DNA of 64,000 bases, taken from Azonexus hydrophilus. Its GTDB lineage: Bacteria; Pseudomonadota; Gammaproteobacteria; Burkholderiales; Rhodocyclaceae. Shown in pieces: positions 38,913 to 57,488 of this stretch (position 1 is the first letter of the stretch; the number at the start of each line of letters is the position of its first letter). The translations under genes were made by a program, and so were the position numbers. The notes under the pieces are model-generated. The model made no database searches. It was not told the DNA's origin and worked only from the letters and a program-made list of their open reading frames with translations. The stretch covers positions 434,001-498,000 of the forward strand of contig NZ_MTHD01000001.1 in assembly GCF_001956855.1 (NCBI RefSeq). The letters are read 5' to 3'.

Positions 38913-38923
38913 TGCAGTAAGCC

Positions 38924-38952
38924 AACCCCCGTGTCTCGTTGACATGGGGGTT
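38924..38952 (+). terminator. Terminator-like hairpin after rpoC
   Basis: AACCCCCGTGTC (38924-38935) pairs with GACATGGGGGTT (38941-38952) with one wobble and a TCGTT loop. It lacks a T run. Its loop and 3' arm contain the -35 of the next promoter. Confidence 0.55.
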
Positions 38953-38967
38953 GATCAACCATAGAAT
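38939..38967 (+). promoter_or_regulatory. Sigma70 promoter of the str operon (rpsL)
   Basis: A perfect TTGACA (38939-38944), 17-bp spacer and TAGAAT (38962-38967). The spacer holds the palindrome GGTTGATCAACC (38949-38960). The -10 lies in ACCATAGA-A-TCTATGGT (38958-38974). Transcription would start near 38974, giving a leader of about 97 nt. Confidence 0.7.
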
Positions 38968-38982
38968 CTATGGTCTTTGTCG

Positions 38983-39006
38983 GCAGAGACTAATCATTGT
39001 CTCTGC
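38983..39006 (+). other. Leader hairpin upstream of rpsL
   Basis: GCAGAGAC and GTCTCTGC form a perfect 8-bp stem with an 8-nt loop, early in the predicted rpsL leader. A second small hairpin, GCCCC/GGGGC, follows at 39031-39047. Function unknown. Confidence 0.45.
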
Positions 39007-39070
39007 TATGGATAACAAAATTGCCGTCGTGCCCCTCGTTTCGGGGCCTGGCTGTTGAAGGAAGTTTGAT

Positions 39071-39448
39071 ATGCCGACCATCAACCAGCTCGTGCGCAAG
39101 CCGCGCGTCGCCGAAAAGGCCAAGAGCAAGGTTCCTGCGCTGGAAAAGTGCCCGCAAAAGCGTGGCGTTTGCACCCGCGTGTATACCACCACCCCGAAGA
39201 AGCCGAACTCCGCGCTGCGTAAAGTTTGCAAGGTTCGTCTGACGAACGGCTTCGAAGTCATCTCCTATATCGGCGGTGAAGGCCACAACCTGCAGGAGCA
39301 CTCAGTGGTCCTGATCCGTGGTGGTCGTGTCAAGGATTTGCCCGGTGTGCGTTACCACACCGTGCGCGGCTCCCTGGATACCCAGGGCGTCAAGGATCGC
39401 AAGCAGTCCCGTTCCAAGTACGGCGCGAAGCGTCCGAAGGCTGCCTGA
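39071..39448 (+). CDS. rpsL: 30S ribosomal protein S12
   Basis: 125 residues at the decoding centre. [12 protein letters not shown] and [13 protein letters not shown] carry the wild-type lysines whose change gives streptomycin resistance. First gene of the str operon, with a GAAGGAAG site before the ATG. Confidence 0.98.
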
Positions 39449-39497
39449 TTCATCAGGTGGTTTGAGTAAGTGGCCACTCTGCTGGGTGGCCGAGAGG

Positions 39498-39529
39498 GCC
39501 GGGGGGGTGAAAACCCCTTCCCGGCTTTT
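39498..39529 (+). terminator. GC-rich hairpin with T run between rpsL and rpsG
   Basis: GCCGGGGGGG pairs with CCCC-TT-CCCGGC around TGAAAA, then TTTT. It may be a partial terminator or an S7-responsive leader element. A small GGCCAC/GTGGCC stem (39472-39491) precedes it. Confidence 0.5.
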
Positions 39530-39558
39530 CAACTGAATAGTGATCAAGTGAGGTTAGT

Positions 39559-40029
39559 ATGCCCCGTCGTCGTGAAGTACCTAAGCGTGACATTCTTCCG
39601 GACCCAAAGTTCGGTAGCGTCGAAGTTTCCAAGTTCATCAATGCAGTGATGCAGAGCGGCAAGAAGTCGGTTGCCGAGCGTATCGTCTACGGTGCGTTTG
39701 ACATCATCACCACCAAGTCTGGCAAGGATCCGCTGGAAGTGTTTGGCTCTGCCATGTCCAACGTCAAGCCGATGGTTGAGGTCAAGTCCCGTCGTGTTGG
39801 TGGTGCCAACTATCAGGTGCCTGTCGAAGTGCGTCCGGCGCGTCGCGCCGCCCTGGCCATGCGCTGGTTGCGTGAGTTCGCCCGCAAGCGTTCGGAAAAG
39901 TCCATGGGTCAGCGCCTGGCTGCTGAAATGCTGGAAGCCTCGGAAAATCGCGGTGGTGCTGTCAAGAAGCGTGATGAAGTTCACCGCATGGCTGATGCCA
40001 ACAAGGCCTTCGCTCACTTCCGCTTCTAA
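39559..40029 (+). CDS. rpsG: 30S ribosomal protein S7
   Basis: 156 residues; a primary 16S rRNA-binding protein that nucleates the 30S head. [20 protein letters not shown] is the conserved start. In E. coli it autoregulates the str operon by binding the S12-S7 interval; here that interval is 110 bp and structured. Confidence 0.98.
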
Positions 40030-40055
40030 TCCGATTATTTTCGAAGGTATCTACC

Positions 40056-42149
40056 GTGGCACGTAAAACCCCTATTGAGCGCTACCGCAACATTGGTATC
40101 AGCGCGCACATCGACGCCGGCAAGACCACCACGACCGAGCGCATCCTGTTCTACACCGGTGTGAATCACAAGATCGGTGAAGTGCATGATGGCGCCGCAA
40201 CCATGGACTGGATGGAGCAGGAGCAGGAGCGTGGCATCACGATCACCTCCGCTGCAACGACCTGTTTCTGGAAGGGTATGGACAGTTCCTTCCCGGAGCA
40301 TCGTTTCAACATCATCGACACCCCGGGACACGTCGACTTCACCATCGAAGTCGAGCGCTCGATGCGCGTTCTCGACGGCGCCTGCATGGTTTACTGTGCG
40401 GTCGGCGGCGTTCAGCCGCAGTCGGAAACCGTCTGGCGTCAGGCAACCAAGTACAAGGTGCCGCGTCTGGCCTTTGTGAACAAGATGGACCGTTCCGGTG
40501 CCAACTTCTTCAAGGTCGTCGATCAGATGCGTACCCGTCTGCGGGCTTCTCCGGTGCCGATCGTTATTCCCATCGGGGCTGAAGATAACTTCGAGGGTGT
40601 GGTTGATCTGCTGAAGATGAAGGCGATCTACTGGGATGAGGCTTCCCAGGGTATGAAGTTTGACTATCGCGAGATTCCGGCTGACTTGCTGGAAACTGCG
40701 AAAACCTGGCGCGAGCAGATGGTTGAGGCGGCCGCAGAAGCTTCCGAAGACCTGATGAACGAATACCTTGAAAACGGCGAACTGCCGGAAGACAAGATCC
40801 GTGAAGGTCTGCGTCTGCGTACCCTGGCTTGTGAAATTCAGCCGATGCTGTGCGGTACTGCGTTCAAGAACAAGGGTGTTCAGCGCATGCTCGACGCCGT
40901 CATCGAACTGCTGCCGTCGCCGGTTGATATTCCGCCGGTCACTGGTCTTGACGAGCGCGATAACGAAGTCTCGCGCAAGGCTGACGATTCCGAAAAGTTC
41001 TCGGCACTGGCTTTCAAGTTGATGACTGACCCGTTTGTCGGCCAGCTGACGTTTATTCGCGTTTACTCCGGCGTTCTGATGTCTGGTGCCGCGGTCTACA
41101 ACTCGATCAAGGGCAAAAAGGAGCGCATCGGTCGTATCCTGCAGATGCACGCCAACAACCGCGAAGAAATCAAGGAAGTTCTGGCGGGTGACATTGCTGC
41201 CTGCGTTGGTCTCAAGGATGTGACGACGGGTGAAACCCTGTGCGATCCGGATGCGCCGATCATTCTCGAGCGCATGATTTTCCCGGAGCCGGTGATTCAC
41301 GTTGCCGTCGAACCGAAGACCAAGGCTGACCAGGAAAAGATGGGCTTGGCGCTTGGTCGTCTGGCTGCAGAAGATCCGTCGTTCCGCGTGCGTACCGATG
41401 AGGAGTCTGGTCAGACCATCATCTCCGGCATGGGTGAATTGCACCTCGATATCATCGTCGACCGCATGCGTCGCGAATTCAATGTCGAAGCGTCCGTCGG
41501 TGCGCCGCAGGTGGCCTATCGCGAATGCATCAAGAAGGCCGTCGAACAGGAAGGCAAGTTCGTCAAGCAATCCGGTGGTCGCGGCCAGTTCGGTCACGTC
41601 TGGCTCAAGATCGAGCCGAACGAAGCCGGCAAGGGTTACGAGTTCGTCGACGCCATCAAGGGCGGTGTCGTTCCGCGCGAATTCATCCCGGCGGTCGACA
41701 AGGGGCTGCAGGATGCTGTCACCAGCGGTGTGCTGGCCGGCTTCCCGGTGGTTGACGTCAAGTTCACGCTGTTCGATGGTTCCTACCACGACGTTGACTC
41801 GAACGAAAACGCATTCCGCATGGCAGCTTCGATGGCCTTCAAGGAAGGTATGAAGAAGGCCAGCCCGACCCTGCTGGAGCCGATGATGGCGGTCGTCGTC
41901 GAAACGCCGGAAGACTATATGGGTAACGTCATGGGCGATCTGTCCTCGCGTCGCGGTATTGTTCAGGGTATGGAAGATCTGCCTGGCGGTACCAAGGAAG
42001 TTCGTGCCGAAGTGCCGCTGTCCGAAATGTTCGGCTACGCTACTTCGCTGCGCTCCCTGTCGCAGGGTCGTGCTACCTACACGATGGAATTCAAGCACTA
42101 CGTCGAAGCGCCGAAGAACGTCGCTGAAGCGGTTATCAACAAGAAGTAA
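40056..42149 (+). CDS. fusA: Elongation factor G
   Basis: 697-residue translocase GTPase. [19 protein letters not shown] is the P-loop region, DTPGHVDF is G3 and NKMDR is G4; domains II-V follow. The start is GTG at 40056 ([18 protein letters not shown]), preceded by a GAAGG site. Last-but-one gene of the str operon. Confidence 0.98.
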
Positions 42150-42170
42150 TGCTTTATTGGAGATCCGATA

Positions 42171-43361
<1,191 letters not shown>

Positions 43362-43381
43362 TTGCTCTTTTGAAAAAACCC

Positions 43382-43403
43382 GGGGCGGCAAGCTTGCTGC
43401 CCC
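43382..43403 (+). other. Hairpin between tufA and rpsJ flanked by a 12-bp direct repeat
   Basis: GGGGCGGCAA and TTGCTGCCCC pair with one wobble. ATTGCTCTTTTG occurs on both sides (43361-43372 and 43404-43415). The first copy overlaps the end of the tufA stop codon. It may slow or process the tuf-rpsJ transcript. Confidence 0.5.
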
Positions 43404-43425
43404 ATTGCTCTTTTGGAAGCCAAAA

Positions 43426-43737
43426 ATGCAAAGCCAAAAAATCCGTATCCGTCTCAAGGCCTTCGACTATCGCCTGATCGATCAGTCGGCTCAGGAAATC
43501 GTTGAAACCGCCAAGCGTACCGGCGCTGTCGTTCGTGGTCCCGTGCCGCTGCCGACCCGCAAGCAGCGTTTTGACATCCTGCGTTCGCCGCACGTCAACA
43601 AGGCTTCCCGTGACCAGCTCGAGATTCGTACCCATCTGCGTTTGATGGATATCGTTGATCCGACTGACAAGACGGTCGATGCACTGATGAAGCTGGACCT
43701 GCCGGCTGGCGTGGACGTCGAAATCAAGTTGCAGTAA
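43426..43737 (+). CDS. rpsJ: 30S ribosomal protein S10 (NusE)
   Basis: 103 residues ([20 protein letters not shown]). A 30S head protein that also pairs with NusB and NusG in antitermination. The start at 43426 matches the family; the longer upstream frame is the end of tufA. It is 64 bp from tufA with no promoter seen, so it is probably read from the str operon. Confidence 0.97.
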
Positions 43738-43758
43738 TTGTGGTATTGCGGATATAAT
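43729..43758 (+). promoter_or_regulatory. Sigma70 promoter of rplC and the S10 cluster
   Basis: TTGCAG (43729-43734, overlapping the rpsJ stop region), 18-bp spacer and TATAAT (43753-43758). The -10 lies in a small inverted repeat, GCGGA-TATAA-TCCGC (43748-43762). A leader of about 80 nt follows, with a TGGCCGG/CCGGCCA stem (43775-43781 with 43813-43819). Confidence 0.6.
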
Positions 43759-43847
43759 CCGCGCCTTTCGGGGGTGGCCGGCAACGGTTGCCCATTTGTT
43801 GTTTTACATCGACCGGCCAATCGCAGCCGGCGATGAGGAGAATAACC

Positions 43848-44486
43848 ATGAGTCTAGGCCTTGTTGGTCGCAAGGTTGGCATGACTCGCATTTTTGCCGA
43901 GGATGGCGCGTCCATTCCGGTAACTGTGCTTGACGTGTCCAATAACCGAGTGACCCAAGTAAAAACGCCGGAGATCGATGGCTACGCAGCCATTCAGGTC
44001 GCATTCGGCCAGCGCCGTGCCTCGCGCGTTTCCAAGCCCCTCGCTGGCCATCTGGCCAAGGCGGGCGTGGAAGCCGGGCATGTGCTCAAGGAATTCCAGA
44101 TCGATGCTGATCAACTCGCTACCTTCAAGGCGGGCGATCAGGTTGCTGTCACCATTTTTGCCGAAGGGCAAAAGGTTGACGTGACCGGCATGTCCATCGG
44201 TAAGGGTTTTCAGGGCGGTATCAAGCGCCATAACTTCAGCTCCAACCGTGCTTCCCACGGTAACTCGGTTTCGCACAATGCGCCGGGTTCCATTGGTATG
44301 GCGCAGGATCCGGGTCGTGTTTTCCCGGGTAAGCGCATGGCCGGTCACCTGGGTGATGTGCAATCCACGATGCAGGGTTTGACGATCGTTCGCGTTGATG
44401 CTGAACGTCAGTTGCTCCTCGTCAAGGGTGCTGTTCCGGGTGCCAAGGGTTCCGACGTCGTCGTGCGTCCGGCAGTCAAGGCTTAA
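43848..44486 (+). CDS. rplC: 50S ribosomal protein L3
   Basis: 212 residues. [20 protein letters not shown] is the family start, and [21 protein letters not shown] holds the conserved loop with the methylated Gln position region. The ATG at 43848 follows a GAGGAG site; the frame upstream is leader. Confidence 0.97.
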
Positions 44487-44495
44487 GGGGGCGAC

Positions 44496-45119
44496 ATGGA
44501 ACTGAAGGTTATTAACGAACAAGGTCAGGAAGCAGCGAAGCTGCAGGCTTCCGACGTGCTGTTCGGTCGCGAATTCAACGAAGCCCTGGTTCACCAGATC
44601 GTCGTCGCCTACCAGGCGAATGCGCGTTCCGGCGACAGCAAGCAGAAGGATCGCTCCGAAGTCCGTCACACCACCACCAAGCCGTGGCGCCAGAAGGGTA
44701 CCGGTCGCGCTCGCGCCGGCTCCAATGGTTCGCCGTTGTGGCGTGGGGGCGGTCGGATTTTCCCGAACTCCCCGGACCAAAACTACTCCCAGAAGGTTAA
44801 CAAGAAGATGTTCCGCGCCGGTATGGCAGCGATCCTCTCCGAGTTGGCCCGTCAGGACCGTTTGATCGTTGTTGACGATCTTGCGGTCGACGCACCGAAA
44901 ACCAAGCTTTTCTCCGCCAAGTTGAAGAGCATGGGTCTCGACGGCAACCTGCTGGTCATCACCGACGAACTGAACGAAAACCTCTATCTGTCGTCGCGCA
45001 ACCTGCCCAATGTTCTGGTGCTTGAAGCTCAGGAAGCCGATCCGGTTTCGCTCGTTCGCTTCGCCAAGGTGCTGGTCACCAAGAACGCCGTGGCCAAGTT
45101 CGAGGAGATGTGGGGATGA
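44496..45119 (+). CDS. rplD: 50S ribosomal protein L4
   Basis: 207 residues. The extended loop [21 protein letters not shown] lines the exit tunnel. In E. coli L4 controls the S10 operon by attenuation. Whether the leader before rplC serves this here is unknown. Overlaps rplW by 4 bp. Confidence 0.97.
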
Positions 45120-45418
45120 ACCAGGAACGTCTGATGCAGGTGCTGCTGGCACCGCAAATCTCCGAAAAGGCAACCTATGTTGCCGAGAAGAACGATCAGG
45201 TGATCTTCCGCGTTGCTACCGATGCAACCAAGCCGGAGATCAAGGCCGCGGTCGAGCTTCTGTTCAAGGTTGAAGTCGAATCCGTCCAGGTCGCCAACGT
45301 CAAGGGCAAGGTCAAGCGCTTCAAGGGCGCCACCGGTCGCCGCAAGGGTTGGAAGAAGGCCTACGTCTGCCTCAAGGCTGGCCAGGAAATCAACTTCGTT
45401 GAAGGGGGTAACGCCTGA
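45116..45418 (+). CDS. rplW: 50S ribosomal protein L23
   Basis: 100 residues at the tunnel exit, docking site for trigger factor and SRP. The ATG at 45116 overlaps the rplD stop (ATGA) and gives [20 protein letters not shown]; an ATG at 45110 is also in frame. Its stop overlaps the rplB start by one base. Confidence 0.95.
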
Positions 45419-46245
45419 TGGCTCTCGTTAAAGTCAAGCCGACTTCCCCCGGCCGTCGCGCCGTGGTCCAGGTCGTCAATGCCAATCTGCACAAAGGCAA
45501 GCCGTTTGCGGCTCTGGTCGAAAGCCAGTCCAAGAACGCCGGCCGCAACAACAATGGTCGCATTACCGTGCGTCACCAGGGTGGCGGTCACAAGCAGGCT
45601 TACCGGATCATCGATTTCAAGCGTACCAAGGACGGTATCCCGGCCAAGGTCGAGCGTCTGGAATACGATCCCAATCGTACTGCCAACATCGCGCTGGTTT
45701 GCTACGCCGACGGCGAGCGCCGTTACATCATTGCCAACAAGGGCATGGTGGTCGGTCAGCAGGTCATGAGCGGCTCCGAAGCTCCGATCAAGTCCGGCAA
45801 TGCGCTGCCGATCCGGAATATTCCGGTCGGTACGACGATCTGCTGCGTCGAGATGCTGCCAGGCAAGGGCGCGCAGATTGCTCGCTCTGCTGGTACTTCG
45901 GTTCAGTTGCTGGCGCGTGAAGGTACCTACGCCCAGATCCGTCTGCGTTCCGGTGAAGTTCGCCGCGTTCACGTCGAATGCCGCGCCACCATCGGTGAAG
46001 TCGGTAACGAAGAAAACAACTTGCGCAAGATCGGCAAGGCCGGTGCCATGCGCTGGCGTGGTGTTCGTCCGACGGTTCGTGGTACGGCGATGAACCCGAT
46101 CGATCACCCGCACGGTGGTGGTGAAGGTCGCACTGGCGAAGGTCGCGTGCCGGTCAATCCGTGGGGTCAGCCCACTAAGGGTTACCGCACCCGCAGCAAC
46201 AAGCGCACGAACAGCATGATCGTTCAGCGCCGTCACAAGCGTTAA
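45418..46245 (+). CDS. rplB: 50S ribosomal protein L2
   Basis: 275 residues near the peptidyl transferase centre. The conserved [20 protein letters not shown] contains the functional His. The C-terminus is [14 protein letters not shown]. Confidence 0.98.
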
Positions 46246-46255
46246 GGGGTAGGAA

Positions 46256-46531
46256 ATGGGACGTTCTCTCAAAAAGGGCCCGTTTATTGATGCGCATCTG
46301 ATCGACAAGGTCGAGGCAGTTCGCGCCACCAATGACAAGCGCCCGATCAAGACCTGGTCGCGTCGTTCGACGATCCTCCCCGAGTTCATCGGCCTGACGA
46401 TTGCGGTCCACAATGGTAAGCAGCATATTCCGGTGTTCGTCACCGAAAATATGGTCGGTCACAAGCTCGGCGAGTTCTCGCTGACCCGGACGTTCAAGGG
46501 TCACACCGCCGGCAAGAAGGCCAAGAAGTAA
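46256..46531 (+). CDS. rpsS: 30S ribosomal protein S19
   Basis: 91 residues in the 30S head, beside S13. [15 protein letters not shown] and [16 protein letters not shown] are family signatures. A GGGTAGGAA site precedes the ATG. Confidence 0.98.
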
Positions 46532-46540
46532 GGAGCTGAC

Positions 46541-46870
46541 ATGGAAACTCGTGCAAGTCTGCGGGGCGTACGCCTCTCTGCGCAAAAAGGCCGTCTGGTG
46601 GCGGATCTCGTGCGCGGCAAGCCGGTTGGTCAGGCTCTCAACATCCTGGCCTTCAGCCCGACAAAGGGCGCTGGTATCGTCAAGAAGGTTCTCGAGTCGG
46701 CAATTGCCAACGCGGAACATAACGACGGCGCCGATATCGACGAACTGACGGTGAAAACCATCTACGTCGAAAAAGGCATGGTGCTCAAGCGCTTCACTGC
46801 GCGCGCCAAAGGTCGTGGCAATCGGATCAGTAAGCCGACCTGCCATATCTATCTGACCGTTGGTAACTAA
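46541..46870 (+). CDS. rplV: 50S ribosomal protein L22
   Basis: 109 residues; its beta hairpin ([19 protein letters not shown]) lines the exit tunnel at the macrolide constriction. An AAGGAGC site precedes the start. Confidence 0.98.
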
Positions 46871-46879
46871 GGAAGAGCC

Positions 46880-47665
46880 ATGGGACAGAAAATTCATCCG
46901 ACTGGCTTTCGTCTGGCCGTCACCAAGAACTGGAGTTCGCGCTGGTTTGCCAACAGCAAGGACTTCCCGGGCATGCTGCAGGAAGACGTCAAGGTTCGTG
47001 AGTATCTCAAGCGCAAGCTGGCTCACGCTTCCGTTGGTCGTGTCCTGATCGAGCGTCCGGCCAAGAACGCCCGCGTCACCGTTTACTCCGCCCGTCCGGG
47101 CGTGGTCATCGGCAAGAAGGGCGAGGACATCGAGCAACTGCGTACGGATCTTCAGCGGATCATGGGCGTTCCTGTCCATGTGTCGATCGAAGAAATCCGC
47201 AAGCCGGAAATCGATGCCCAACTGATCGCCGATTCGATTGCCCAGCAACTCGAAAAGCGCATCATGTTCCGTCGTGCCATGAAGCGCGCGATGCAGAATG
47301 CGATGCGTCTTGGTGCCCAGGGTATCAAGGTGATGAGTGCAGGTCGTCTGAACGGTGCCGAAATCGCTCGTAGCGAATGGTATCGCGAAGGTCGCGTGCC
47401 GCTTCATACCCTGCGTGCCGATATCGACTACGCAACCTCTGAAGCGCTGACCACGTACGGCATCATCGGTATCAAGGTTTGGGTTTACAAGGGCGACATG
47501 CTTGATCGCAACGAGCAGCCGGTAGTTGAAGAGCCGGTTGCCGACGATCGTCGTCCGCGCCGTAACCCGGGCAAGCCTGAAGGCGACAAGCCGCGCACCC
47601 GTACGGTCAAGAAGGCCGACGGTGCTGGCGACCCGGCCAAGCGCGTAAGAAAGGCAGGTGCTTAA
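46880..47665 (+). CDS. rpsC: 30S ribosomal protein S3
   Basis: 261 residues with a KH domain ([14 protein letters not shown]) at the mRNA entry site. The C-terminal 45 residues are a basic, disordered extension ([20 protein letters not shown]) making it longer than E. coli S3 (233), a form common in betaproteobacteria. Confidence 0.97.
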
Positions 47666-47666
47666 C

Positions 47667-48080
47667 ATGTTGCAACCTAATCGTCGCAAGTTCCGCAAGG
47701 AGCACAAGGGACGCAATGAAGGTCTGGCTACCCGCGGCACCAAGGTGTCGTTCGGTGAGTGGGGCCTCAAGGCTACCGGCCGTGGTCGTCTGACCGCGCG
47801 ACAAATTGAAGCAGCCCGTCGTGCGATGACCCGCCATATCAAGCGTGGTGGTCGCATCTGGATCCGTATCTTCCCGGACAAGCCGATTTCCAAGAAGCCG
47901 GCAGAAGTTCGTATGGGTAACGGTAAGGGTAATCCGGAGTACTGGGTTGCCGAAATCCAGCCGGGCAAGGTTCTTTACGAGATGGATGGTGTCAATGAAG
48001 CGCTGGCTCGCGAGGCATTTGCCCTTGCTGCCGCCAAGCTGCCGATTGCCACCACCTTCGTGACTCGTCATCTGGGGTAA
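47667..48080 (+). CDS. rplP: 50S ribosomal protein L16
   Basis: 137 residues ([19 protein letters not shown]), organising the A-site tRNA region. The ATG at 47667 gives the standard N-terminus; an ATG three codons upstream would overlap rpsC. The SD lies within the rpsC end. Confidence 0.97.
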
Positions 48081-48082
48081 TC

Positions 48083-48277
48083 ATGAAAGCTAGTGAACTG
48101 AGAACCAAGAGCGTGGACGAGCTCAAGACGGAATTGCTGGACCTGTTGAAGGCGCAGTTTGGCCTGCGGATGCAGATTGCAACGCAACAACTGTCCAACA
48201 CCAGCCAAATGTCCAAGGTTCGTCGCGACATCGCTCGCGTTCGCACCCTCATCCGTGAAAAGGCGGTGCAGCAATGA
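48083..48277 (+). CDS. rpmC: 50S ribosomal protein L29
   Basis: 64 residues, two helices ([22 protein letters not shown]), at the tunnel exit near L23. Overlaps rpsQ by 4 bp (ATGA). Confidence 0.97.
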
Positions 48278-48540
48278 GCGAATCCTCCAGCATCAAGCGT
48301 ACGCTGATCGGTCGTGTGGTCAGTGACAAGATGGAAAAGACGGTAACCGTCCTGGTCGAGCGGAAGGTCAAGCACCCGATGTACGGCAAGGTCATGGTTC
48401 GTTCCAAGAAGTACAGCGCGCACGACGAAGGTAATGTGGCCAAGGCCGGTGACCTGGTTGAAATCGTCGAAACCCGTCCGGTTTCGAAGACCAAGGCATG
48501 GGCGGTGACCACTGTTCTGGAGAAGGCTATCGTCGTCTGA
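48274..48540 (+). CDS. rpsQ: 30S ribosomal protein S17
   Basis: 88-residue OB-fold 16S rRNA-binding protein ([20 protein letters not shown]). Last gene of the S10 operon; a terminator/promoter composite follows. Confidence 0.98.
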
Positions 48541-48559
48541 CGATTTTTCTTCAAAATGC

Positions 48560-48589
48560 TTGCGCAGTCAGTAAAGAAGCCGGTATAAT
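48560..48589 (+). promoter_or_regulatory. Sigma70 promoter of the spc operon (rplN)
   Basis: TTGCGC (48560-48565), 18-bp spacer, perfect TATAAT (48584-48589). The -10 is exactly the loop of the rpsQ terminator hairpin. The discriminator is CCGGCTTC, like the tRNA promoter. Start near 48596, leader about 95 nt. Confidence 0.7.
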
Positions 48590-48603
48590 CCGGCTTCTTT
48601 TTT
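48573..48603 (+). terminator. Intrinsic terminator of the S10 operon
   Basis: AAAGAAGCCGG (48573-48583) and CCGGCTTCTTT (48590-48600) form a perfect 11-bp stem with loop TATAAT, followed by TTT. It sits 32 bp after rpsQ. Confidence 0.85.
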
Positions 48604-48690
48604 GCAGCTATCAAACTAGCATGCAAATCTGTTCGACCCTCACGGGTTCCAAGACTGACCGCTCAGCGGATTAAGTTGGAGTTTATTTAA

Positions 48691-49059
48691 ATGATTCAGA
48701 TGCAGACGACGCTGGACGTCGCCGATAACACCGGCGCCCGTTCAGTTATGTGTATCAAGGTGCTTGGCGGCTCCAAGCGCCGCTACGCCGGCATTGGCGA
48801 CATCATCAAGGTCAGCATCAAGGATGCTGCGCCGCGTGGTCGCGTCAAGAAGGGTGACGTCTATAACGCCGTGGTGGTTCGTACCGCCAAGGGTGTTCGT
48901 CGTCCTGATGGCTCGTTGGTGCGCTTTGATGGCAATGCCGCAGTTCTTCTCAACAACAAGCTCGAGCCGCTCGGCACGCGCATCTTTGGCCCGGTCACCC
49001 GCGAACTGCGTACCGAGCGCTTCATGAAGATCGTGTCCCTGGCTCCTGAAGTTCTGTAA
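48691..49059 (+). CDS. rplN: 50S ribosomal protein L14
   Basis: 122 residues ([20 protein letters not shown]) at the subunit interface, also the target of RsfS. First gene of the spc operon. A TTGGAG site precedes the ATG. Confidence 0.98.
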
Positions 49060-49069
49060 GGAGAGCGCA

Positions 49070-49387
49070 ATGGAAAAAATTCGCAAGGGCGACGAAATCA
49101 TCGTCATTACCGGCAAGGATAAAGGCAAGCGCGGAACCGTGCTGGCGCGCATCGACGAGGAGCATCTCCTTGTTGAAGGTGTGAATCGTGCGAAAAAGCA
49201 CGTCAAGCCGAATCCGATCAAGGGTGTCCAGGGTGGCATCGTTGATAAGGACATGCCGATCCATATCTCCAATGTTGCGCTGTTCAATCCGGCGACGAAG
49301 CAGGCTGACCGTGTCGGCTTCAAGTCTCTGGAAGATGGTCGCAAGGTTCGCGTGTTCAAGTCGAACGGCGAACTGGTGAACGCATAA
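49070..49387 (+). CDS. rplX: 50S ribosomal protein L24
   Basis: 105 residues with a KOW motif ([18 protein letters not shown]); an early 50S assembly initiator. An AAGGAGAGC site precedes the ATG. Confidence 0.97.
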
Positions 49388-49396
49388 GGGGCAGTC

Positions 49397-49936
49397 ATGG
49401 CGCGTTTGCAGCAGTTTTACAAGGACTCCGTCGTTGGCGAGATGTCCAAGCAGTTTGGTTACAAGTCCATCATGGAAGTGCCGCGCATCACCAAGATCAC
49501 CCTGAATATGGGTGTTGGCGAGGCGGTTGCTGACAAGAAGGTGCTTGAGAACGCCGTTGGCGACATGCAGAAAATCGCTGGTCAGAAGCCTGTTACCACG
49601 AAGGCTCGCAAGTCGATCGCTGGCTTCAAGATTCGTGATGGCTACCCGATCGGTTGCATGGTTACCCTGCGCGGTCCGCGCATGTTTGAATTCCTTGATC
49701 GTCTCGTCACCATCGCGTTGCCGCGTGTTCGCGACTTCCGTGGCGTTGCTGGCAAGGGTTTCGATGGCCAGGGTAACTACAACATGGGCGTCAAAGAACA
49801 GATCATTTTCCCGGAAATCGAGTACGACAAGATCGATGCTCTCCGGGGTATGAATATCAGCATCACCACGACCGCGAAGAGCGATGCAGAGGCCAAGGCC
49901 CTGCTTGCCGCGTTCAAGTTCCCGTTCAAGAATTGA
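49397..49936 (+). CDS. rplE: 50S ribosomal protein L5
   Basis: 179 residues, binding 5S rRNA and contacting P-site t[23 protein letters not shown] and [16 protein letters not shown] are signatures. Confidence 0.98.
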
Positions 49937-49943
49937 GGCAATC

Positions 49944-50249
49944 ATGGCAAAACTTGCTCTGATCAACCGTGAAGAGAAGCGCCGCAAGATGGTGGAGCAG
50001 TTCGCGAAAAAGCGCGCTGCCCTTGAGGCGATCATCAACGACGTGAGCCTGTCGGACGAGGAGCGTTACGAAGCCCGTCTGAAGATCCAGGCGCTGCCGC
50101 GTAATTCGAGCCCGTCGCGTCTGCGCAATCGCTGCCAGCTGACCGGTCGTCCGCGTGGTGTTTTCCGTAAATTCGGCCTGTGCCGTCACAAGATCCGCGA
50201 ACTTGCCTTCAATGGCGAGATTCCGGGTGTTGTCAAGGCCAGCTGGTAA
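49944..50249 (+). CDS. rpsN: 30S ribosomal protein S14 (zinc-free form)
   Basis: 101 residues ([20 protein letters not shown]). This is the long form without the CxxC pairs of zinc-binding S14. The ATG at 49944 lies 7 bp after rplE with a TGAGG site; a longer upstream frame lies within rplE. Confidence 0.97.
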
Positions 50250-50263
50250 GAGGAGATACAGAA

Positions 50264-50662
50264 ATGGCTATGAGCGATCCCATCGCGGACATGCTGACCC
50301 GCATCCGCAACGCCCAGCTCGCCGAAAAGGCGTCTGTGTCCATGCCGTCGTCCAAGCTCAAGGTGGCTATTGCTGCCGTGCTCAAGGATGAAGGTTACGT
50401 TGAAGAATTTGCTGTCCGTCAGGCTGATGATGGCAAGGCGACTCTCGAAATCGCACTCAAGTATTACGCCGGTCGTCCGGTTATTGAGCGCATCGAGCGT
50501 ATCTCCAAGCCTGGTCTGCGCATCTACAAGGGTGCAGAGGACATTCCGCGCGTCATGAACGGCCTTGGTGTGGCGATTGTCTCCACGCCGAAGGGTGTGA
50601 TGACCGACCGCAAGGCGCGCGCTTCCCGTGTCGGGGGCGAAGTCCTCTGCATCGTGGCGTAA
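50264..50662 (+). CDS. rpsH: 30S ribosomal protein S8
   Basis: 132 residues ([18 protein letters not shown]), a central-domain 16S binder. In E. coli S8 represses the spc operon at the L5 region. AGAGGAGA lies well placed before the ATG at 50264; MSDP at 50270 is the alternative start. Confidence 0.96.
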
Positions 50663-50675
50663 GGAGCGAAGCAAA

Positions 50676-51206
50676 ATGTCTCGTGTAGGTAAAAATCCAA
50701 TCGTGCTGCCGGCTGGTGTTGAAGTCGCCATCGGTGAGCAGATCGTCGTGAAGGGGCCCCTGGGTACCCTGAAGACGGCCGCGAACCCCGCCGTTAAGAT
50801 CAGCCAGGAAGGGCAGAGTATCGTCGTTTCCAAGGTTGAAGGCGTGGAAAATGCATCCGCCATGTGGGGCACCATGCGTGCTAACCTCAATAACATGGTC
50901 GTTGGCGTTTCCAAGGGGTTCGAGCGTAAGCTGCAACTGGTCGGCGTGGGCTATCGCGCCCAGGCTCAGGGCGATGTCCTGAACCTTTCGCTCGGCTTTT
51001 CGCACCCTGTCGCGCACAAGATGCCGGCCGGTGTGAAAGTCGAATGTCCGACCCAGACCGAAGTCCTGATCAAGGGCTCGGACAAGCAGCAAGTCGGGCA
51101 GGTTGCCGCCGAAGTTCGTGCCTATCGCAAGCCGGAGCCCTATAAGGGCAAGGGTGTGCGTTACTCGGACGAAGTGGTGGTTATCAAGGAAACCAAGAAG
51201 AAGTAA
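50676..51206 (+). CDS. rplF: 50S ribosomal protein L6
   Basis: 176 residues ([17 protein letters not shown]), near the sarcin-ricin loop. The start at 50676 has an AAGGAGC site; the longer frame upstream overlaps rpsH. Confidence 0.97.
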
Positions 51207-51215
51207 GGGTGGCAT

Positions 51216-51572
51216 ATGTTTAACAAGAAAGAAGCACGTTTGCGTCGTGCCCGCAAAACCCGGGCCAAAATCGCCGAGCTCAAGGCTGTGCGCTTGTGTA
51301 TCAACCGCACGAACTGCCACATTTACGCCCAGATCATCTCGCCGTGTGGCGGCAAGGTCCTGGCTTCGGCTTCCACGCTGGACAAGAACGTTCGTGGCGA
51401 TGTCGCGAATGGCGGTAACAAGGCTGCAGCCACTTTTGTTGGCAAGCTGATCGCCGAGCGCGCCAAGGCCGCCGGTGTTGAGCAGGTGGCTTTCGATCGC
51501 TCCGGGCTCCAGTACCACGGTCGTATTCAAGCGTTGGCGGAAGCTGCGCGTGAAGCCGGTCTGAAGTTCTGA
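51216..51572 (+). CDS. rplR: 50S ribosomal protein L18
   Basis: 118 residues ([20 protein letters not shown]), binding 5S rRNA with L5. [23 protein letters not shown] is the conserved end. Confidence 0.97.
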
Positions 51573-51598
51573 TCGCCGCGAAAGGAATAGGTTACAAA

Positions 51599-52126
51599 AT
51601 GGCTAAACCTGAAAGAAACAAGAAGCCGCAGCAAGCTGAAGAGCGTGATGACGGCATGCGCGAAAAGATGGTCGCGGTCAATCGCGTCACCAAGGTGGTG
51701 AAGGGCGGCCGGATTCTCGGTTTCGCAGCACTCACCGTCGTTGGTGATGGCGATGGCAGCATCGGCATGGGCAAGGGCAAGTCCCGCGAAGTGCCGGTGG
51801 CCGCTCAGAAGGCAATGGAAGAGGCTCGTCGCAAGATGGCCAAGGTCAGCCTGAAGAACGGTACCGTCCATCACACCGTGATGGGCCGTCATGGCGCAAC
51901 GACCGTGATGATCCAGCCGGCACCGGAAGGTACGGGCATCATCGCCGGCGGCGCCATGCGCGCCGTCTTCGAGGTGGTCGGCGTGACCAACGTGGTTGCC
52001 AAGGCACACGGCTCGACCAATCCCTACAACATCGTGCGTGCCACCATCGACGGTCTGTCGAAGGTGAATACGCCGGCCGAAATTGCTGCCAAGCGCGGCA
52101 AGTCGGTTGATCAGATCCTGGGGTAA
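51599..52126 (+). CDS. rpsE: 30S ribosomal protein S5
   Basis: 175 residues, important for decoding accuracy. [20 protein letters not shown] carries the spectinomycin loop region in wild-type form (VTKVVKGG). An AAAGGAA site precedes the ATG. Confidence 0.98.
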
Positions 52127-52129
52127 GTC

Positions 52130-52312
52130 ATGTCTGACAAGAAAATCAAAGTGACGCTCGTCAAGAGCATCATCGGCACCAAGCAGGACCACCGCGCCAC
52201 CGTTCGTGGTCTCGGCCTGCGCAAGCTGAACAGCTCTGCCGAGCTGCTGGATACGCCGTGTGTTCGCGGCATGATCCAGAAGGTTCAGTATCTCGTCAAG
52301 GTTGAGGGTTAA
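52130..52312 (+). CDS. rpmD: 50S ribosomal protein L30
   Basis: 60 residues ([20 protein letters not shown]), the short bacterial form. Three bases separate it from rpsE. Confidence 0.97.
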
Positions 52313-52315
52313 GCC

Positions 52316-52750
52316 ATGCGTCTGAATACCATCAAGCCGGCTGAAGGCTCCAAGAAGAACGCCAAGCGCGTTGGTCGCGGTATCGGTTCTGGCCTCGGCA
52401 AGACCTGTGGTCGTGGCCACAAGGGTCAGAAGTCCCGTTCCGGCGGTTTCCACAAGGTCGGTTTCGAAGGCGGTCAGATGCCTTTGCAACGCCGCCTGCC
52501 GAAGCGCGGTTTCAACTCGCTGACGCGTGCCCGCAACTACGAAGTTCGTCTGAACGAGCTGGAAAACCTGCCGGTCGAGGAAATCGATCTGCTGGTTCTG
52601 CAAGTTGCCGGTATTGTTCCGGGTGACGCACTGTCCGCGAAGGTGATCCTGTCGGGTGCCATTACCCGCAAGGTTGTCCTCAAGGGCGTTGGTGCGACCA
52701 AGGGTGCGAAGGCTGCCATTGAGGCAGTCGGCGGCTCGATCGCCGAGTAA
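52316..52750 (+). CDS. rplO: 50S ribosomal protein L15
   Basis: 144 residues. The Gly-rich N-terminal tail ([20 protein letters not shown]) threads the 50S core; [17 protein letters not shown] is conserved. Confidence 0.98.
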
Positions 52751-52769
52751 GACAGGAAAGGTTAGAACG

Positions 52770-54092
52770 TTGGCTGCAAATCCCAATACCGTTGGCAAGG
52801 GTGGAAAGTTCGGCGACCTCAAGCGCCGGCTGTGGTTCCTGCTTGGCGCCCTGGTTGTGTACCGCATTGGCGCGCACATCCCGGTTCCCGGTATCGACCC
52901 CAACGTTCTGGCCGATCTGTTCAATTCGCAGCAAGGCGGCATCCTGGGCATGTTCAACATGTTCTCGGGTGGCGCCCTGTCGCGCTTCACCATCTTCGCA
53001 TTGGGGATCATGCCGTACATTTCGGCGTCGATCATCATGCAACTGATGAGTGTTGCCAGCCCGCAGCTCGAAGCTCTCAAGAAAGAGGGCGAGGCTGGAC
53101 GACGCAAGATCACTCAATACACCCGTTACGGTACTGTCGTGCTGGCCCTCTTCCAGGGTATCGGCATCGCGGTTGCGCTGGAAGCGCAGGCCGGGCTGGT
53201 CAATGATCCGGGTTTCATGTTCCGCCTGACGACGGTATCCACCCTGCTGACTGGGACGATGTTCCTGATGTGGCTGGGCGAGCAGATTACCGAGCGTGGT
53301 CTGGGTAACGGTATCTCGATCATCATTTTTGCCGGTATCGCTGCTGGTTTGCCAAGCGCGATCGGTGGCCTGCTCGAACTGGTTCGTACCGGTGCGATGC
53401 ATCCGCTGACGGCGATCGTCATCTGTCTGCTGGTCGTTCTCGTCACTGCCTTTGTGGTGTTCGTCGAGCGCGGTCAACGCAAGATTCTGGTCAATTATGC
53501 CAAGCGCCAGGTTGGCAACAAGGTTTATGGCGGTCAGAGCTCCCATCTGCCGCTCAAGCTGAACATGTCGGGCGTCATTCCGCCGATCTTCGCTTCGTCG
53601 ATCATCCTGTTTCCGGCCACGCTGGCTGGCTGGTTTGGTTCCGGCGAATCGATGACGTGGCTGAAGGATATGGCTGCGGTCCTGTCGCCAGGACAGCCTA
53701 TCTATGTGATGCTCTACGCTGCAGCGATCATCTTCTTCTGTTTCTTCTACACCGCCCTTGTGTTCAATTCCAAGGAAACGGCTGACAATCTGAAGAAAAG
53801 CGGCGCCTTTGTTCCCGGGATTCGTCCGGGTGAGCAAACCGCGCGTTACATCGACAAGATTCTGATGCGTCTGACGCTGATCGGTGCGGCGTACATCACC
53901 GTGGTCTGTCTGCTGCCGGAATTCCTGATTCTCAAATGGAACGTACCGTTCTATTTCGGGGGTACCTCGCTGCTGATCATCGTTGTCGTCACCATGGATT
54001 TCATGTCTCAGGTCCAGGCCTATGTCATGTCCCACCAGTATGAAAGTCTCTTGAAGAAAGCAAACTTCAAGGGGTCCCCGATGATCAAGTAA
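52770..54092 (+). CDS. secY: Preprotein translocase subunit SecY
   Basis: 440 residues, ten membrane helices forming the Sec channel. [30 protein letters not shown] (plug and gate region) and the cytoplasmic loop VEQGQR-like [17 protein letters not shown] are present. The start is TTG at 52770, giving [20 protein letters not shown] (read as Met), with an AGGAAAGG site; no ATG or GTG fits between rplO and the first conserved residues. Confidence 0.95.
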
Positions 54093-54097
54093 GCGCA

Positions 54098-54316
54098 ATG
54101 GCTAAAGAAGACTATATCGAGATGCAGGGCGAGGTCGTTGAGAACCTCCCCAACGCAACTTTCAAGGTCAAGTTGGAAAACGGACACGTTGTCCTTGGCT
54201 TTATCTCCGGCAAGATGCGGATGCATTACATCCGTATCCTGCCGGGCGACAAGGTCACTGTGCAATTGACTCCGTATGATTTAAGCAAGGCCCGGATAGT
54301 TTTCCGGGCAAAGTAA
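54098..54316 (+). CDS. infA: Translation initiation factor IF-1
   Basis: 72-residue OB-fold protein ([20 protein letters not shown]) that occupies the A site during initiation. Five bases after secY, the usual betaproteobacterial location. Confidence 0.98.
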
Positions 54317-54390
54317 AAGTTCTCTACGCAATAAACCGCAGGGCAAGGAATCACGGCTGCTTCCAAGCTCTCGCAGACGAGGAGTAAAAC

Positions 54391-54504
54391 ATGAAAGTGC
54401 AACCTTCAGTGAAGCGCGTTTGCCGCAATTGCAAGGTGATCCGTCGCAAGGGTGTCGTTCGCGTCATTTGCAAGGATCCGCGTCACAAACAGCGCCAGGG
54501 TTAA
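54391..54504 (+). CDS. rpmJ: 50S ribosomal protein L36 (zinc-binding form)
   Basis: A 37-residue gene: [20 protein letters not shown] then [17 protein letters not shown]. Zinc ligands C11, C14, C27 and H32 are all present. A GAGGAGT site lies before the ATG. Confidence 0.97.
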
Positions 54505-54554
54505 TTCCTGACGAAGTCGGCATTCGTTAATTTTAGAAATATTGGAGTGAGTCA

Positions 54555-54917
54555 ATGGCCCGTATTGCAGGGGTAAACATTCCGAACCATCAGCATGCCT
54601 GTATCGCCCTCACGGCGATTTATGGCATCGGCCGTACCCGCGCACAGAAGATCTGTGACGCGGCCGGTGTTGGTCGTACCACGAAAATGAAGGACATTTC
54701 CGATACGGATATGGACCGTCTGCGTGATGAAGTGGCGAAGTTCACCGTCGAAGGTGATCTGCGTCGCGAAGTCACGATGAACATCAAGCGCCTGATGGAC
54801 CTCGGTTGCTACCGTGGTCTGCGTCACCGCAAGGGCTTGCCCTGCCGCGGTCAGCGTACCAAGACCAATGCACGTACCCGCAAGGGCCCGCGCAAGGCCA
54901 TTGCTGGCAAGAAGTAA
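54555..54917 (+). CDS. rpsM: 30S ribosomal protein S13
   Basis: 120 residues at the 30S head, contacting P-site t[23 protein letters not shown] and the basic tail [10 protein letters not shown] match. First gene of the alpha cluster. Confidence 0.98.
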
Positions 54918-54929
54918 TAGGGACTGAAC

Positions 54930-55319
54930 ATGGCCAAGACTGCTACCAAAGTTCGCAAGAAGGTTAAGAAGAACGTTGCCGAGGGCATTGCCCACATTCA
55001 CGCTTCGTTCAACAACACCATCATCACCATTACCGATCGCCAGGGCAACGCGCTGTCGTGGGCAACTTCCGGCGGTGCCGGTTTCCGCGGTTCGCGGAAG
55101 TCCACCCCGTTCGCTGCCCAGGTCGCTGCGGAAGCTGCCGGCAAAGCCGCGCAGGAATGTGGCGTTAAGAATCTGGAAGTGCGCATCAAGGGCCCAGGCC
55201 CGGGCCGCGAATCTTCTGTCCGTGCGCTGAATGCACTGGGCATGAAGATCACCGCGATTTCCGACGTGACGCCGGTGCCGCACAACGGCTGCCGTCCGCC
55301 CAAGAAGCGCCGCATCTAA
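54930..55319 (+). CDS. rpsK: 30S ribosomal protein S11
   Basis: 129 residues on the platform. [20 protein letters not shown] and [17 protein letters not shown] are signatures. Confidence 0.98.
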
Positions 55320-55331
55320 GGAGAAAGACAA

Positions 55332-55961
55332 GTGGCTCGTAATCTCGATCCGAAATGCCGTCAGTGCCGCCGCGAAGGCGAAAAGCTGTTCCTGAAGGGC
55401 GAAAAGTGTTTTACCGACAAGTGTGCCATCGAGCGTCGCTCGTACGCACCGGGTCAGCATGGCCAGAAGTCTGGCGCCCGTCTCTCCGACTACGGCGTCC
55501 ACCTGCGTGCCAAGCAGAAGATCCGTCGCGTTTATGGCGTTCTTGAAGGCCAGTTCCGTCGCACCTTTGCCGAAGCTGACCGCCGCAAGGGCCAGACCGG
55601 TGAAAACCTGCTGCAGTTGCTGGAAGCCCGCCTGGACTCCGTCGCCTACCGCATGGGTTTTGGTGCTTCGCGCACTGAATCCCGTCAGATCGTCCGTCAC
55701 AACGGCGTTCTGGTTAACGGCAAGCGCGTGAATATTCCTTCCTACCTCGTCAAGCCGGGTGATGTTGTCCAGCTGACCGATCGTTCCCGCGCTTCCCTGC
55801 GTTGCAAGGCCGCTCTCGAAGCTGCCGAAGCACGTGGCTTCCCGGAATGGATTTCTGTCGATGTCAAGGAAGGCAAGGGCACGTTCAAGGCCATGCCGCA
55901 GCGCTCGGAGCTGCCGGCAACCCTGAACGAAGGTCTGGTCATCGAACTTTATTCGAAGTAA
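55332..55961 (+). CDS. rpsD: 30S ribosomal protein S4 (zinc-binding form)
   Basis: 209 residues, 30S assembly initiator with an S4 RNA-binding domain. The start is GTG at 55332. The N-terminus has C9, C12, C26 and C31 (CRQC then CFTDKC), the zinc-finger form known from Bacillus S4 rather than the E. coli form. In E. coli S4 represses the alpha operon. Confidence 0.97.
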
Positions 55962-55985
55962 CCCGCAAGCAGAGGAATCAAGCCC

Positions 55986-56960
55986 ATGCAGAGCAGTGGA
56001 CTTCTTAAGCCCCGCATCATCGACGTGCAGAGTGTTTCGCCGGTCGAAGCCAAGGTTGTCATGGAGCCGTTTGAACGCGGTTTCGGACATACCCTCGGCA
56101 ACGCCCTGCGTCGCATCCTGCTGTCCTCGATGCCTGGCTACGCACCGACGGAAGTGTCGATCGACGGCGTGTTGCATGAATATTCGACTATCGACGGTGT
56201 TCAGGAAGATGTCGTTGACATCCTTTTGAACCTCAAGGGAATCGTCTTCAAGCTGCATAACCGTGAAGTCGTCACCCTGAAGCTGGCCAAGGAAGGCGAG
56301 GGCGTGATCCGTGCTGGCGATATCGAGTTGCCGCACGACGTCGAAATCATCAATCCGGAGCACGTCATTGCCCACCTTTCCACCGCCGGCAAGCTGTCGA
56401 TGGAAATCAAGGTCGAAAAAGGCCGTGGCTATGTTCCCGGTAACGTGCGCAATCTCGGCGATGCCAAAACCATTGGTCAGCTCGTGCTGGACGCCTCGTT
56501 CAGCCCGGTTCGTCGCGTTGCCTACTCGGTCGAGAATGCCCGGGTCGAACAGCGTACCGATCTGGACAAGCTGATTGTCGATATTGAAACCAACGGCGTT
56601 GTCGAGCCGGAAGAAGCGATCCGTTACGCAGCCCGCGTACTGATCGAGCAACTGTCGGTCTTCGCTGACCTGGAAGGTACGGCACCCGTTGCCGAGGCTT
56701 CCAAGCCGGCTCAGGTCGACCCGGTGCTGCTTCGTCCGGTCGATGATCTCGAACTGACGGTTCGTTCTGCGAACTGCCTCAAGGCCGAGAACATCTACTA
56801 CATCGGCGACCTGATCCAGCGCACCGAAAATGAGCTGCTGAAGACGCCGAATCTGGGTCGCAAGTCGCTCAACGAAATCAAGGAAGTTCTTGCCGCGCGT
56901 GGTCTCACGCTGGGCATGAAACTGGAAAACTGGCCGCCCGCCGGTCTGGAGAAGGCGTAA
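55986..56960 (+). CDS. rpoA: RNA polymerase alpha subunit
   Basis: 324 residues: N-terminal assembly domain ([20 protein letters not shown]), linker, and the C-terminal domain that binds UP elements and activators ([36 protein letters not shown]). The ATG lies 24 bp after rpsD. Confidence 0.98.
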
Positions 56961-57017
56961 GCCTTTTCCCGATCCGGGCAGTCAAGGGACGCCTGCAGAA
57001 CATAGAAAGGATTAACC

Positions 57018-57419
57018 ATGCGTCACCGCAATGGACTTCGCAAACTGAACCGTACCACCAGCCATCGCCTGGCGATGCTGCGCAACATGACCGTTTCCCT
57101 GCTCCGTCACGAGGCCATCAAGACCACGTTGCCGAAGGCCAAGGAACTGCGTCGTGTCGTCGAGCCGATGATCACGCTTGGCAAGAACCCGTCGCTGGCC
57201 AACAAGCGCCTGGCGTTCGATCGCCTGCGTGACCGCGAGATCGTCGTCAAGCTGTTTGCTGAAATCGGCCCGCGCTATGCAACCCGTCCGGGTGGCTACC
57301 TGCGCATCCTGAAGTGCGGTTTCCGCGTTGGCGACAACGCACCGATGGCTTTCGTCGAATTGCTCGATCGCCCGGAACCCACCGAAGCGGTTGAAATTGC
57401 CGACGAAGCTGCCGAGTAA
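57018..57419 (+). CDS. rplQ: 50S ribosomal protein L17
   Basis: 133 residues ([20 protein letters not shown]), near the tunnel exit. Last gene of the alpha operon; a strong terminator follows. Confidence 0.98.
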
Positions 57420-57432
57420 TCGACGCTTCATC

Positions 57433-57460
57433 AAAAAAGGCCGGGTTTCCGGCCTTTTTT
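57433..57460. terminator. Bidirectional terminator after rplQ
   Basis: AAAAAAGGCCGG and CCGGCCTTTTTT form a perfect 12-bp stem with a GTTT loop and T runs on both strands, between convergent genes. Confidence 0.92.
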
Positions 57461-57488
57461 TTCGTCTGTCACATCTGATCAGTTTTGC

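Follow-up and report, generated by a model that had tools for sequence, protein, structure and literature searches.

A conserved superposition of a terminator-like hairpin and a predicted promoter, attached to a probable S8 leader, at the S10-spc junction of Azonexus hydrophilus

Layout of the rpsQ-rplN junction

Between them, the S10 and spc operons account for about twenty ribosomal proteins. They adjoin on the plus strand of the stretch of DNA analysed here (hereafter the window; 64,000 nucleotides of Azonexus hydrophilus contig NZ_MTHD01000001.1). The open reading frame of rpsQ (uS17; 48274..48540), whose protein served as the query for relatives and has its nearest named counterparts in three Azonexus (97, 93 and 93% identical), is the last of the S10 operon, and that of rplN (uL14; 48691..49059) is the first of the spc operon. 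Between them lie, all on the plus strand, (i) a -35 element, TTGCGC (48560..48565), assigned from the sequence and from relatives, (ii) the 5' arm AAAGAAGCCGG of a hairpin (48573..48583), evident from sequence and fold and with variants in relatives, (iii) the hexamer TATAAT (48584..48589), at once the predicted -10 box of the spc promoter and the whole loop of the hairpin, (iv) the 3' arm CCGGCTTCTTT (48590..48600), which at the DNA level would supply the promoter's GC-rich discriminator and start region, (v) a T6 tract (48598..48603), seen likewise in relatives, which would be both the U-tract of a terminator and the initially transcribed region of spc, (vi) an spc leader element (48649..48679), recognised by sequence comparison, and (vii) the rplN Shine-Dalgarno sequence GGAG (48678..48681), placed from the sequence and from its spacing in relatives. 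Farther downstream, the open reading frame at 50264..50662 (plus strand; start placed inside the listed frame) is presumably rpsH, encoding uS8, the presumed ligand of the leader element.

The first-pass annotation had described an 11-bp stem with TATAAT as its entire loop and TTGCGC 18 bp upstream, and both are borne out by the sequence (48573-48583 pairing with 48590-48600; 48560-48565). The stem folds with z -4.17, none of 200 shuffles being as good, and the 28-mer of stem and loop occurs once in the 3.6-Mb genome. An 11-bp, GC-containing stem followed by T6 has the make-up of an intrinsic terminator, and TATAAT (6/6 to consensus) with TTGCGC (3/6), 18 bp apart and kept in relatives, has that of a sigma70 promoter with its hexamers at 16-18 bp; the label 'sigma70 promoter' rests on the perfect -10 box and on conservation, and not on the -35 match. 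A consensus scan of the window for promoters and terminators lists neither part of 48560-48603, the promoter because the -35 element agrees with consensus at three of six positions where the limit is four, and the terminator because A-U pairs of the stem use up part of the T-run. A match of the Rfam family sroD to the hairpin was rejected (23.2 bits against a threshold of 50).

From the position of the -10 box we infer that spc transcription starts at 48595..48597, with T or C, that is, within the 3' arm and T tract, in agreement with the earlier proposal that the promoter start lies inside the T tract of the terminator. Since purines are absent from 48594-48603 of the plus strand, transcription would have to begin with a pyrimidine, at the T-run or within it. 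Pyrimidine starts are unusual, and slippage at the start of the T-run is possible.

Hairpins over -10 boxes do not appear to be a habit of this genome. Among 34 distinct TTG/TATAAT control sites, collected with two whole-genome patterns (35 places, one of them double-listed), a fold around the -10 box with z < -5 occurs at only two, the spc site and C10:446592; a third site reaches z -2.64, and for the remaining 31 z exceeds -1.3. A chance origin of the junction is rejected on the same count together with the conservation described below. The second site (C10:446592-446639; L213 1193-1242) has a very strong hairpin across its -10 box without a T-run directly after the stem, and is flanked by what we take to be a pseudouridine-synthase-like gene on one side and a rimP-like, then a nusA-like gene on the other.

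Two further elements lie in the neighbourhood. Over the rpsQ stop codon there is a second, weaker hairpin (48529-48544), of variable sequence and at a place where weak hairpins are common in relatives; it may also end S10 transcripts or assist in doing so. Between rpsJ and rplC, the palindrome GCGGATATAATCCGC (43748-43762) contains TATAAT (43753-43758), and TTGCAG precedes this hexamer by 18 bp. The two may form another nested promoter, this one within the S10 operon itself; the fold of the site is unremarkable (z -1.2).

Hairpin and -10 box in relatives

Gaps between rpsQ and rplN were extracted from 80 named loci, 45 order-level genomes and 55 class-level genomes, the last drawn from 141 class genomes with rpsQ (our own and one order member included). 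A -10 box was placed in the 126 gaps of the window, the named loci and the order-level genomes (by hand in L055 and L058), and 118 were kept, the E. coli junction being counted separately. Dropped were the order genomes L145, L150, L152, L154 and L155, with short, broken or odd gaps, and the named loci L049, L066 and L069, in which no rplN start was found within 700 bases after rpsQ and the S10-spc junction looks broken or misassembled. As Rhodocyclales we count, by name and rpsQ identity, the named loci L002-L081 minus L074, L075, L078, L079 and L081, which with the window gives 73 usable gaps, 53 of the 'CCGG type', defined by CCGG on both flanks of the -10 box, and 20 with other arms. Because the inner arms define the CCGG group, only its loop and outer arms test conservation. 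'Burkholderiaceae-like' (the family of G078) is a label given from resemblance to named L074-L081; the hairpin set for this group is the best 30, by score, of 90 matches to the leader model introduced below, 28 of them distinct.

In close relatives the arrangement is kept. Among the named loci, 52 have an rpsQ identity of at least 82%, and 51 of them were usable; 50 of these read CCGG-TATAAT-CCGG, and the remaining one, L052, has a different stem around TATAAT. The gap comparison proposed in the first-pass annotation thus came out in its favour, TATAAT being kept between paired arms in 51 of 51 and loss of the loop with an intact stem never being seen among them. All 53 CCGG-type gaps have the TATAAT hexamer and a TTG at the -35 place (spacer 18 in 48, 17 in five), and in 51 the longest T-run is 6 or 7. 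The group comprises 13 distinct 22-nt stems, one with a compensated G:C, and the inner nine pairs of the 53 stems hold 13 G:T cells (12 at A:T positions) against one A:C cell, as expected for a sense RNA, cells here being sequences and not independent events.

The 20 other Rhodocyclales place different arms around TATAAT (17), TACTAT (2) or TACAAT (1). To compare native with foreign arms, 3' flanks were exchanged among species and folding energies recomputed. In these 20 sequences the native mean is -9.54 against -6.94 for swapped flanks (sd 0.58; none of 200 swaps as good), so that swapped arms cost 2.6 kcal/mol on average; in the 30 Burkholderiaceae-like sequences it is -18.59 against -14.11 (sd 0.54; lowest of 200 swaps -15.96), an advantage of 4.5 kcal/mol for the native arms; and in 45 wider sequences, mostly one per family, -7.44 against -6.35 (sd 0.34; again 0/200). 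At least six pairs run across or into the -10 box in 29 of the 30 Burkholderiaceae-like sequences (shuffles: mean 22.3, maximum 27). Judged by these energies, the arms differ yet stay co-adapted around the -10 box in both the other Rhodocyclales and the Burkholderiaceae-like genomes, the 3' arm being also under promoter constraint, and the superposition of hairpin and promoter looks selected. Fixed-register covariation in the 20 other Rhodocyclales was rejected as strong evidence (103 of 160 cells paired against 94.1 after swapping; 20 of 2000 swaps as high); when the register is displaced by +1 to +3, just as many cells or more are paired (104, 116 and 119), and the register-free energy test was used for that reason.

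Where the -10 box sits relative to the hairpin varies. Relative to the best terminator-like hairpin of the 45 wider sequences, it falls in the 3' arm in 16 (shuffles 6%), in the tail in seven (8%), in the 5' arm in three (6%) and in the loop in two (3%); the hairpin lies upstream of the -10 box in seven (12%) and downstream in two (3%), and none was found in eight (62%). This distribution indicates that superposition is common and its register free. Counting any weak helix that encloses the -10 box gives no enrichment in the same 45 sequences (26, against 32.6 in shuffles) and hardly any in the 20 other Rhodocyclales (18 against 16.4); in 10 of the latter the best terminator-like hairpin follows the promoter, and the search for such hairpins preferred sites away from the -10 box in 16. 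The earlier reading of one segment as both terminator-like and promoter-like stands, while its statement that the -10 box is exactly the loop needs correcting, this register being a lineage-specific solution at family level.

The T-run sets a similar limit on the word 'terminator'. After the -10 box, the longest T-run reaches at least 5 in only seven of the 20 other Rhodocyclales, and is only 2-3 in 29 of the 30 Burkholderiaceae-like sequences, too short for a U-tract though the stem is strong. Since it is usually short outside the Azonexus group, 'terminator' does not describe the hairpin in every group; termination, as predicted from sequence, is well supported only in the Azonexus group, with its long T-run. 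At class level most gaps leave little room for such a device, 41 of the 55 being at most 80 nt long, 13 longer and one not placed. In six Rhodocyclaceae/Propionivibrio-type relatives (L056, L057, L059, L060, L064 and L070) a strong GC hairpin with a short T-run (TTTC/TTC) behind it stands just past the predicted spc start, and could be a leader attenuator.

A shared stop and start site

We propose that polymerase coming out of the S10 operon copies the inverted repeat into RNA, that this RNA would then fold as AAAGAAGCCGG/CCGGCUUCUUU around the loop UAUAAU, and that U6 would release the S10 transcript with a predicted end at 48600-48604. In DNA, the same loop would serve as the spc -10 box, and the spc transcript would begin about 7 bp downstream, at 48596/48597, in the 3' arm or T tract. 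This RNA would not be stopped by the hairpin, because it would be without the 5' arm, and the predicted start inside the 3' arm argues against reading the hairpin as an attenuator. The element would insulate the two operons in minimal space and reset expression there, and operon insulation is the most economical function that we can assign to it.

The junction of E. coli is built in a similar manner. There, the TATAAT after rpsQ, which we take to be the spc promoter, lies inside the inverted repeat CCCATATC...GATATGGGG, followed by ATTTTT (z -3.95; 0/300 shuffles as good), and thus shares with Azonexus a -10 hexamer within an inverted repeat with a T-rich tail. It differs in having an extra, separate terminator-like hairpin upstream and in placing the -10 box partly in an inner stem, whereas Azonexus has a simple 6-nt loop. 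In the frd terminator/ampC attenuator of E. coli, too, one operon's terminator overlaps the regulatory region of its downstream neighbour. The ampC hairpin, however, sits downstream of the ampC start and serves as its attenuator, whereas the spc RNA of Azonexus would be without the 5' arm. A description of the terminator/promoter overlap was not found in the portions consulted of the open-licence literature, including PMC4245973 and PMC12207403.

It is about an even question whether economy alone accounts for the arrangement, that is, whether a short gap needing both a terminator and a promoter came to share bases between them without any regulatory interplay. That different lineages put the -10 box in different parts of the hairpin agrees with such an origin, as does the separate upstream hairpin of E. 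coli; against it, Burkholderiaceae-like genomes keep a hairpin over the promoter despite their short T-run and although their gap is long, at 216-265 nt in the named loci L074, L075, L078, L079 and L081.

A coupled switch, in which read-through or termination would occlude the spc promoter or recycle polymerase onto it, so that S10 output sets spc output, seems to us unlikely. The predicted start and stop sites do coincide within a few bases, and the arrangement is conserved in close relatives, but with the register differing between lineages no fixed geometry of start and stop is conserved.

We regard it as rather improbable that the inverted repeat belongs to the promoter at the DNA level, as a symmetric operator or a bidirectional promoter, instead of acting as an RNA terminator. 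The Burkholderiaceae-like genomes without a long T-run would fit this reading, and so would a promoter-like site on the minus strand (48614-48585), although such sites number 4 against a shuffle mean of 6.0. The strand asymmetry of folding fits it as well: the bias of folding energy is mostly base composition, shuffled flanks showing most of it, so that the plus-strand bias was rejected as proof of RNA function, and only the Burkholderiaceae-like set exceeds both controls. The case for RNA and not DNA as the selected molecule consequently rests mainly on the sense-side T tract, with its run of at least 6 in nearly all CCGG-type gaps, and on the 13:1 excess of G:T over A:C cells, and the stem and loop have the sizes of an intrinsic terminator. 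A terminator-like hairpin around a predicted core promoter, retained while the sequence of both arms has turned over, offers a clean natural setting in which to ask whether termination and initiation interfere.

The spc leader and its probable ligand

Between the predicted start and rplN, the element CCAA-G-ACUG-A-CCGC-UCA-GCGG-AUU-AAG-UUGG (48649..48679) conforms to a pattern with 14 fixed positions, CCAA, ACU and AAGUUGG (CCAAxACU-helix-AAGUUGG), which is found in 115 of the 118 gaps retained (or 115 of all 126); in most cases 8 to 13 nt separate it from the rplN start codon. Of the three misses, L026 is a one-base variant, the extracted gap of L127 is too short (the covariance model matches it), and in L112 no element was seen. 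The stretch from ACU to AAG, 16 to 75 nt long, encloses a helix in which 91% of cells are paired in register, against 30-45% in four off-register alignments; two alignments on the same diagonal reach 73 and 82%. In the 57 short-loop leaders 97.8% of cells are paired, against 14.0-46.5% when slid, and seven double changes occur against 0.6 in shuffles; six of the 11 pairs are invariant, partly because the pattern fixed them.

A covariance model of the element finds exactly one copy in each matched genome. With a cutoff of E 0.1 it matches at least 62 of the 120 order genomes, a lower bound because 14 of the 20 listed non-matches carry the pattern, and with a cutoff of E 1 it matches 90 of the 96 Burkholderiaceae-like genomes; where rpsQ was mapped in the matched order genomes, the leader lies 3' of it in 26 of 26. 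In the class sample two of 114 genomes match, our own and G205; the latter carries rpsQ twice, on contigs C217 (with the leader match) and C110. Two copies, one with a beta-type leader, suggest that the G205 assembly is contaminated. No Rfam 15 family matches the leader in a search of 38000-58000 at E 5 or better.

The helix and the specific placement ahead of the spc operon are what would be expected of an operator, and the core points to uS8. In the sections available of PMC4176348, the S8-binding core of 16S rRNA consists of the triples A595-(A596-U644) and (G597-C643)-U641 and the invariant A642, and the E. coli spc mRNA has the corresponding triple A+80-(A+81-U+11), its operator lying in rplE at +7..+12 / +79..+83. 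The leader sets U-AAG-U against A-G-ACU-G, and 16S h21 of the same genome reads TTAAGA...TGACTG. By the core as given there, the leader pattern reproduces both triples, A642 and a paired 598-640, the last as a swapped Watson-Crick pair, with 641 free (G 88, A 22, T 5 of 115), in the same 115 of 118 gaps. With the E. coli operator, as described in those sections, the leader shares the strand order, the core AxACUG / yAAGU and the mimicry of 16S h21; it differs in position, the E. coli operator being in rplE and the betaproteobacterial element in the rplN 5' leader, over the first Shine-Dalgarno sequence.

A search rule built on the S8 core picks out the known E. coli operator at its correct position and finds 98 of the 126 gaps with four inner pairs required and 29 with five, although the covariance model and this rule fix, or have learned, the same core and are therefore no fresh test of it. 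At rplE starts the rule finds nothing under either setting in the 55 loci where the start was located (it was not located in 25 of 80), and in the window, too, no S8 core was found at the rplE start (49397..49516, plus strand), the place of the E. coli S8 operator. A stricter form of the rule gives five matches in the 64-kb window, the leader among them, so that the rule is not specific by itself.

Going by this mimicry, the leader element is a probable uS8 operator, moved from rplE to the rplN Shine-Dalgarno sequence, and the overlap of GGAG with the UUGG strand suggests a direct block of the first gene. The spc RNA would carry a 95-nt leader whose hairpin at 48649-48679 mimics the uS8-binding core of 16S rRNA, and excess S8 would most likely repress the spc operon at its first gene through that overlap. 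We thus consider it likely, taking both halves of the junction together, that 48560-48603 is a superposed terminator and promoter and that the leader behind it mimics the uS8 core and allows S8 to repress at rplN. That the element binds uL14, uL24 or uL5 instead is very doubtful, its position next to rplN being offset by the agreement of the core positions, with 641 free, with both 16S h21 of the same genome and the E. coli S8 operator as far as PMC4176348 describes them. As a uS8 operator, the leader would be directly testable for much of a bacterial order.

Conserved structured 5' UTRs ahead of ribosomal protein genes have been reported before (Eckert and Weinberg 2020; PMC7247131), and the spc leader resembles those described in the sections available; Table 1 of that paper, as available, holds no S8, L14 or spc leader. 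An S8-type rplN leader was found neither in Rfam 15 nor in the parts consulted of the open-licence literature, PMC2704228 included. In the accessible parts of a 2024 review (PMC10931766), phylogenetic study of spc autoregulation is said not to have advanced, and outside E. coli and V. cholerae, B. subtilis included, the regulation of spc is described as unknown.

The leader is also a candidate mechanism for a mutation in Bordetella pertussis. According to the portion consulted of PMC7742992, a spontaneous G-to-T change 18 bases before rplN raises rplN-rpsD transcripts by a mechanism that its authors call as yet undefined. Base -18 is the G of AAG in 25 of the 30 Burkholderiaceae-like leaders; the other five have this G at -17 to -15 and a different base at -18. 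With these leaders as guide, the element may explain the B. pertussis mutation. It is tempting to speculate, albeit tentatively, that betaproteobacteria possess a two-layer S10-spc device, composed of a terminator hairpin around the spc promoter, with a shared stop and start site and a U-tract start open to UTP-sensitive slippage, and of an S8 operator at the first Shine-Dalgarno sequence, and that the B. pertussis mutation is the loss of the invariant G of this operator.

Another possible regulatory site lies farther along the window. Ahead of rpsM, 54505-54587 matches the Rfam family Alpha_RBS (RF00140) with 42.3 bits against a threshold of 38, and the S4 site of the alpha operon thus seems, from this match, to be present in this betaproteobacterium.
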